From: Euptelea pleiosperma
Taxonomy: Eukaryota > Streptophyta > Magnoliopsida > Ranunculales > Eupteleaceae
Assembly (NCBI GenBank): GCA_035048495.1
Contig: CM068542.1
Location: forward strand, 37,167,109-37,231,108
Length of the DNA stretch: 64,000 bases
Direction of reading: 5' to 3'
Shown here: in pieces, positions 46,950 to 47,090 of the stretch
Position numbering within the stretch: position 1 is the first letter of the stretch
How the letters are laid out: each line of letters opens with the position of its first letter
Translations under genes and position numbers: made by a program
The notes under the pieces: model-generated
The model's database searches: none
Told to the model about the DNA's origin: nothing
The model's input: the letters and a program-made list of their open reading frames with translations, nothing else

Positions 46950-47090
46950 ATGGAAAGACCGAGGCGTTTCGACGGTTTGGTTTACTCACGATCTCATTGC
47001 TTTCTCACCAATACCGGTTTTGTTTCTGGGTTTTATTGTTGGGGTTGGGAATTCTTGACTGCTCTTCTGCTCTTCAGTTTATACCACTAA
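46950..47090 (+). CDS. uORF2 in the HSFB1 leader (46 aa), conserved TBF1-type peptide
   Basis: ATG at 46950, TAA at 47088-47090, 117 bp before the main start. The C-terminal part SGFYCWGWEFLTALLLFS closely matches, as I recall it, the end of Arabidopsis TBF1/HSFB1 uORF2, while the N-terminal 25 residues look unconstrained. In Arabidopsis these uORFs repress translation of the main ORF until immune or starvation signals relieve it. The conserved aromatic and leucine-rich end points to a peptide acting in cis on the ribosome. No other ATG lies between this stop and the main start. Confidence 0.85.
   Translation: MERPRRFDGLVYSRSHCFLTNTGFVSGFYCWGWEFLTALLLFSLYH

Follow-up and report, generated by a model that had tools for sequence, protein, structure and literature searches.

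An HG18-type upstream reading frame in the HSFB1 leader of Euptelea pleiosperma and the spacing between its conserved core and stop codon

Why should a short peptide encoded in the leader of a transcription factor gene be kept almost unchanged across flowering plants, and at which point would it act on the ribosome? The first part of this question, the reason for conservation of the TBF1 uORF2 peptide, was named an important remaining question in 2012. Both parts are raised again by a 64,000-nucleotide stretch of Euptelea pleiosperma DNA (contig CM068542.1, hereafter the window), in which a 46-codon upstream open reading frame (uORF) on the plus strand at 46950..47090 precedes the HSFB1 gene. 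A preliminary description of the window had recognized this frame as a uORF of the TBF1 uORF2 type whose C-terminal constraint bears the signature of a ribosome-stalling nascent peptide. Sequence comparison supports its identity as the TBF1/HsfB1 uORF2 orthologue, a member of group HG18 of the conserved-peptide uORFs (CPuORFs), and we consider it probable, though by no means certain, that its peptide arrests the ribosome in elongation at the end of a conserved core.

Identity of the reading frame

The frame, here called uORF2, translates as MERPRRFDGLVYSRSHCFLTNTGFVSGFYCWGWEFLTALLLFSLYH, followed by the stop codon TAA, and its C-terminal end is SGFYCWGWEFLTALLLFS-LYH. Its AUG has G at both -3 and +4, and 117 nucleotides separate its stop codon from the HSFB1 AUG at 47208. 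With the peptide alone as query, six plant proteins were retrieved from 5.8 billion proteins (E 2.8e-6 to 1.3e-4), and a profile search with an E cut-off of 1 yielded 36 relatives, the weakest at 0.085. Organism names are attached to 21 of them, representing 20 genera: Rhizophora, Pistacia, Manihot, Theobroma, Corymbia, Quercus, Populus, Senna, Medicago, Glycine, Carya, Kalanchoe, Clitoria, Arachis, Brassica, Phaseolus, Daucus, Nelumbo, Linum and Spirodela. A profile of the 36 relatives, with the window's own peptide left out, matched the uORF2 frame at E 5.5e-18. The best match elsewhere among 2808 six-frame pieces of the window had an E of 1.2, and the same profile reached at best 0.2 on 20 first-order Markov sequences of the window's length (60649 pieces). 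A chance origin of the similarity is excluded.

One source contig of 3998 bases carries a frame of 32 residues (P0037, E 0.085) whose core, GFTTWGWEFLTGFLIFG, has diverged; it is possibly a more remote HG18 relative or a chance match. A scan of viral contigs for the uORF2 pattern gave 13 pattern matches, none of which was confirmed.

HG18 comprises the uORFs of Arabidopsis At4g36990 (HsfB1) and rice LOC_Os09g28350 (PMC2075485). The frame in the window lies 5' of an HSFB1 orthologue, as judged by genomic position, and encodes the HG18 peptide. It is a further member of a family that has been in print, with its conservation and Ka/Ks (the ratio of nonsynonymous to synonymous substitution rates), since 2007. 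New here are one added member and a more pointed description of the floating stop codon discussed below. Homologues and position upstream of HSFB1 together bear out the preliminary identification. The likeness of the C-terminus to that of TBF1 uORF2, noted in that description, is matched by the Brassica rapa counterpart of the Arabidopsis peptide (P0018), whose core agrees with that of the window at 16 of 17 residues.

In the mechanism that we propose, scanning ribosomes would start at the uORF2 AUG, and the core GFYCWGWEFLTALLLFS, lying in the exit tunnel by the peptidyl-transferase centre, would slow or stop the ribosome. The stalled ribosome would block those following it and hold HSFB1 translation low, and heat or pathogen stress would let ribosomes bypass or escape uORF2. 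Arrest would occur during elongation, with the P site near F42-L44, and not at the stop codon. We infer transcription and translation of this uORF2, and ribosome arrest by its peptide, and the pattern of conservation fits an arrest peptide. In Arabidopsis, uORF2 represses AtHSFB1 in a sequence-dependent manner and heat relieves the repression (PMC4746267; PMC12303099), elf18 lowers ribosome occupancy of TBF1 uORF2 (PMC10499604), and galactinol modulates repression by HSFB1 uORF2. Arabidopsis uORF1 was inactive in one study, and both uORFs were active in another.

Conservation along the peptide and the proposed site of arrest

Conservation is concentrated in residues G27-S43 (47028..47078). This 17-residue core, with the consensus GFYCW[G/D]WEFLTALLLFS, stays near-invariant across distantly related flowering plants, with Spirodela, Nelumbo, legumes and Brassica among them. 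Nine positions (G27, F28, W31, W33, E34, F35, L36, T37, L40) are the same in all 36 relatives, and at six others 33-35 relatives are identical to the window. C30 is kept in 25, the remainder having V (nine unnamed rows), W (one) or T (one), and G32 is kept in 23 with D in the other 13. Residue 32 (47043-47045) switches between G and D in rows that are otherwise near-identical, even inside Malpighiales, where it is G in Manihot and Rhizophora and D in Populus and Linum.

The N-terminal part of the peptide (residues 1-25, 46950..47024) evolves fast. Six uORF rows (Theobroma, Manihot, Nelumbo, Carya, Quercus and Brassica) share 16-17 of the 17 core residues (27-43) with the window, whereas in residues 1-25 the five rosid rows share only 3-7 and Nelumbo shares 16. 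The earlier statement that the first half of the peptide is different from its counterparts stands for the rosid rows and applies less well to Nelumbo. The start of the core lies 9-55 residues past the predicted frame start.

How tight this conservation is can be judged against HSFB1 itself in seven same-genus pairings drawn from five uORF rows: Theobroma, Manihot and Quercus, and Nelumbo and Carya with two HSFB1 copies each. The Quercus pairing joins a Quercus rubra uORF with a Quercus robur HSFB1. The Manihot uORF row and HSF24 row come from source contigs of equal size (36,952,686), and the listed Theobroma and Carya pairs differ in this respect. Against the window, identities were 16-17/17 in the core, 76-82/93 in the HSFB1 DNA-binding domain, 97-128/196 in HSFB1 residues 98-293 and 3-16/25 in uORF2 residues 1-25. 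By these counts the core is no less conserved than the DNA-binding domain. A pairing of the Brassica uORF with protein P0154 (core 16/17, domain 74/93, rest 105/196) was excluded because the origin of P0154 is uncertain. This protein carries an Arabidopsis thaliana HSF4/TBF1 description yet groups with Theobroma in the HSFB1 tree (100/99), and its label probably names a homologue and not the source organism.

The uORFs of AdoMetDC1 and bZIP11 reportedly arrest ribosomes at the stop codon through interference with termination, and the HG18 peptide could in principle do the same. Such a peptide would be expected to keep a fixed spacing between core and stop. This was examined in 34 of 37 rows, after removal of P0035 (43-residue tail), P0036 (9-residue tail, no Met) and P0037 (2-residue tail). 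The tail between core and stop was not fixed but ranged from 1 to 11 residues; the window and all 21 named rows fall within 1-5, and the values up to 11 come from unnamed rows. Tails of 1-4 residues prevail (26 of 34), as arrest at the stop codon would lead one to expect. The variable spacing speaks against it, as does the published scoring of HG18 as length-conserved at "Neither" end (N- or C-terminus), an entry that no other group shows in the portion of Hayden and Jorgensen's Table 6 consulted for Arabidopsis-rice groups 1-19. Taken together, we regard arrest at the stop codon as rather unlikely for HG18. Of the preliminary claim that constraint lies just before the stop, the near-invariant C-terminal core remains and the immediate neighbourhood of the stop does not, given the spacing of 1-11 residues.

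The floating stop speaks more for elongation arrest where the core ends than for arrest at the stop codon. Seen across the alignment, HG18 as a group might well be an elongation-arrest CPuORF, in which a fixed 17-residue core would halt the ribosome with sense codons remaining while the stop floats, although we put this forward tentatively. If so, the pause should keep to the core, and longer tails should leave it farther from the stop. The Brassica tail is a single residue, and if Arabidopsis is alike, the two candidate sites nearly coincide and Arabidopsis experiments would be unable to separate them. They are separated in the window plant, where the variable tail LYH (47079..47087) has three residues, in Nelumbo with five and in the long-tailed rows. 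Our literature search found no published placement of the arrest site of the HG18 uORF in the portions of the papers available to us, and one may be in print.

Several considerations weigh against elongation arrest by a specially constrained core. Tails longer than five residues occur in four of the 34 rows, all without an organism name. That the core exceeds the DNA-binding domain in conservation is only suggestive, since it has just 17 residues. The relatives were retrieved mostly via words derived from the core, which partly builds in the contrast with residues 1-25; constraint on the N-terminus would nevertheless have been visible. Finally, a 2007 publication gives a mean pairwise Ka/Ks (yn00) of 0.26 for the HG18 uORF and 0.15 for the main frame, so the whole peptide is not more constrained than HSFB1. 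A codeml value of 0.01 for the uORF was flagged there as inaccurate.

A different explanation turns on phenylalanine supply. On this view, which was put forward for Arabidopsis TBF1, uncharged tRNA-Phe together with eIF2alpha phosphorylation would let ribosomes pass both uORF1 and uORF2 during infection. Each Arabidopsis uORF contains four Phe, Phe starvation relieves repression, and pathogen-induced derepression is lost in atgcn2. In the window, uORF1 is a 15-residue frame, MVIVVGSIRIRRREA, at 46900..46947 (plus strand), with G at -3 and +4. Instead of four Phe in both uORFs we find six in uORF2, which would suit this explanation, and none in uORF1, so a Phe-counting role of uORF1 does not apply in this plant. 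Among the relatives, Phe outside the core ranges from 0 to 4, with 0 in Nelumbo, and Phe content leaves the kept Trp, Glu, Thr and Leu positions unexplained (a similar point is made in PMC3426882). The role of GCN2 in plants is, moreover, disputed among reviews. We consider the Phe explanation very unlikely.

The conserved element could also be RNA, with the peptide secondary, if a structure 3' of the uORF2 AUG aids start-codon selection (uAUG-ds), as described for Arabidopsis TBF1. The 103 nucleotides from the uORF2 AUG fold at -24.5 kcal/mol, within the published range of -19.9 to -34.1, and a small hairpin of 11 pairs is predicted six nucleotides into uORF2 (46956..46983, plus strand; -11.8 kcal/mol for 46955-46984). 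The region is, however, no more structured than dinucleotide shuffles: z is -0.29 for the 103 nucleotides, where 63 of 200 shuffles were as stable, +0.41 for uORF2 in full (129 of 200) and +0.59 for 46770-47230 (68 of 100). The hairpin sits in the fast-evolving N-terminal part while the conservation is in the core, and constraint on amino acids is indicated by the Ka/Ks of 0.26 in print. As the primary cause of conservation, RNA structure thus seems highly improbable to us, and the two mechanisms could act jointly.

Least credible of all is a small stable protein that acts in trans. Storage of the relatives as predicted proteins lends it weak support. Searches gave no match for the peptide in Pfam (E 0.001) or in the Protein Data Bank (PDB; E 10), the N-terminus is highly variable in length and sequence, and HG18 is listed among the known sequence-dependent, cis-acting CPuORFs (PMC7106846).

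The downstream gene, the leader and neighbouring elements

The HSFB1 coding sequence was found intact, as the preliminary description had stated. It consists of exon 1 (47208..47411) and exon 2 (48262..48939), both on the plus strand, which are separated by a phase 0 GT-AG intron (47412..48261) within the DNA-binding domain. Exon 2 ends in TGA, and the 293-residue protein matches Pfam HSF_DNA-bind (PF00447) at E 8.4e-31. Exon 2 carries LFGVWLKAGKKR with the motif LFGVWL, presumably the class-B Hsf signature. Among the best 120 of 5766 matches, the closest proteins are from Tetracentron (70% identity), Coptis (67%) and Nelumbo (66%). In a 27-row tree the window stands beside the sampled Ranunculaceae and Menispermaceae rows with support of 90/89, under the starred level, and the Macleaya and Papaver rows fall outside this group. 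All four belong to Ranunculales. The gene thus points to an early-diverging eudicot, weakly placed with Ranunculales. A known immune and heat translational switch would then extend to an apparent early-diverging eudicot, and the floating stop gives comparative grounds for asking at which point of uORF2 ribosomes pause.

Within the leader, the stop codon of uORF1 lies two nucleotides 5' of the uORF2 AUG, so ribosomes that translated uORF1 should skip uORF2, and uORF1 may offer a bypass. An additional upstream AUG frame of 38 residues at 46793..46909 (plus strand) has a weak context, with T at -3 and C at +4. It runs into the start of uORF1 and counts only for a transcript that begins upstream of it. 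An in-frame fusion of uORF2 with HSFB1 was considered and rejected, because the two frames agree but two more in-frame stops intervene. An Rfam scan of the window gave no family at gathering scores. There is no purine run of at least nine nucleotides in 46700-47207, so that an R-motif is not evident there by this measure, which is not a scan for the published motif. Longer purine runs at 46456-46477, 46501-46518 and 46591-46609 are of consequence only for a transcript that begins upstream of them.

Directly 5' of the HSFB1 leader, at 46031-46370, we observed a foldback repeat resembling a miniature inverted-repeat transposable element. Related copies of this family lie near 32.5-33.2, 43.2-43.5, 45.4-45.7, 52.7-53.0, 53.6-53.8 and 58.6-59.1 kb, with matching pieces 67-91% identical. 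Elsewhere in the window, long minus-strand frames at 6273-10163, 12850-16486 and 25692-28868 resemble pieces of Ty1/copia gag-pol polyproteins (family assigned by eye) and apparently represent three elements. A Mutator-like transposase region occupies 55884-58313 on the plus strand, where the frame at 56469-57170 matches Pfam MULE at E 5.2e-12 and three other frames tested had no Pfam match.

Comparison with known systems

The closest system is HG18 itself (At4g36990 uORF2 and LOC_Os09g28350), which has the same gene, a preceding uORF1, a conserved C-terminal part and, through the Brassica rapa row, the same core peptide. The uORF2 of the window differs in its length of 46 residues, compared with the published 36-38. 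Its core is preceded by 26 residues, compared with 17-21 in 13 of 16 named rosid rows and 28 in Nelumbo. The lack of Phe in uORF1 also sets the locus apart from Arabidopsis TBF1.

bZIP11 belongs to group HG1, and its sucrose-responsive uORF2 is likewise a conserved-peptide uORF in the leader of a transcription factor gene, a likeness of arrangement and not of compared sequences. HG1 is length-conserved at the C-terminus and HG18 is not, according to Table 6. In the GCN4 and ATF4 leaders, too, a short uORF1 and then an inhibitory uORF precede the coding sequence of a stress transcription factor. Unlike that of uORF2 in the window, the peptides of the GCN4 uORFs lack conservation. The uORF2 of ATF4 extends into the main frame, whereas uORF2 of the window ends well before HSFB1 and begins almost directly after uORF1.
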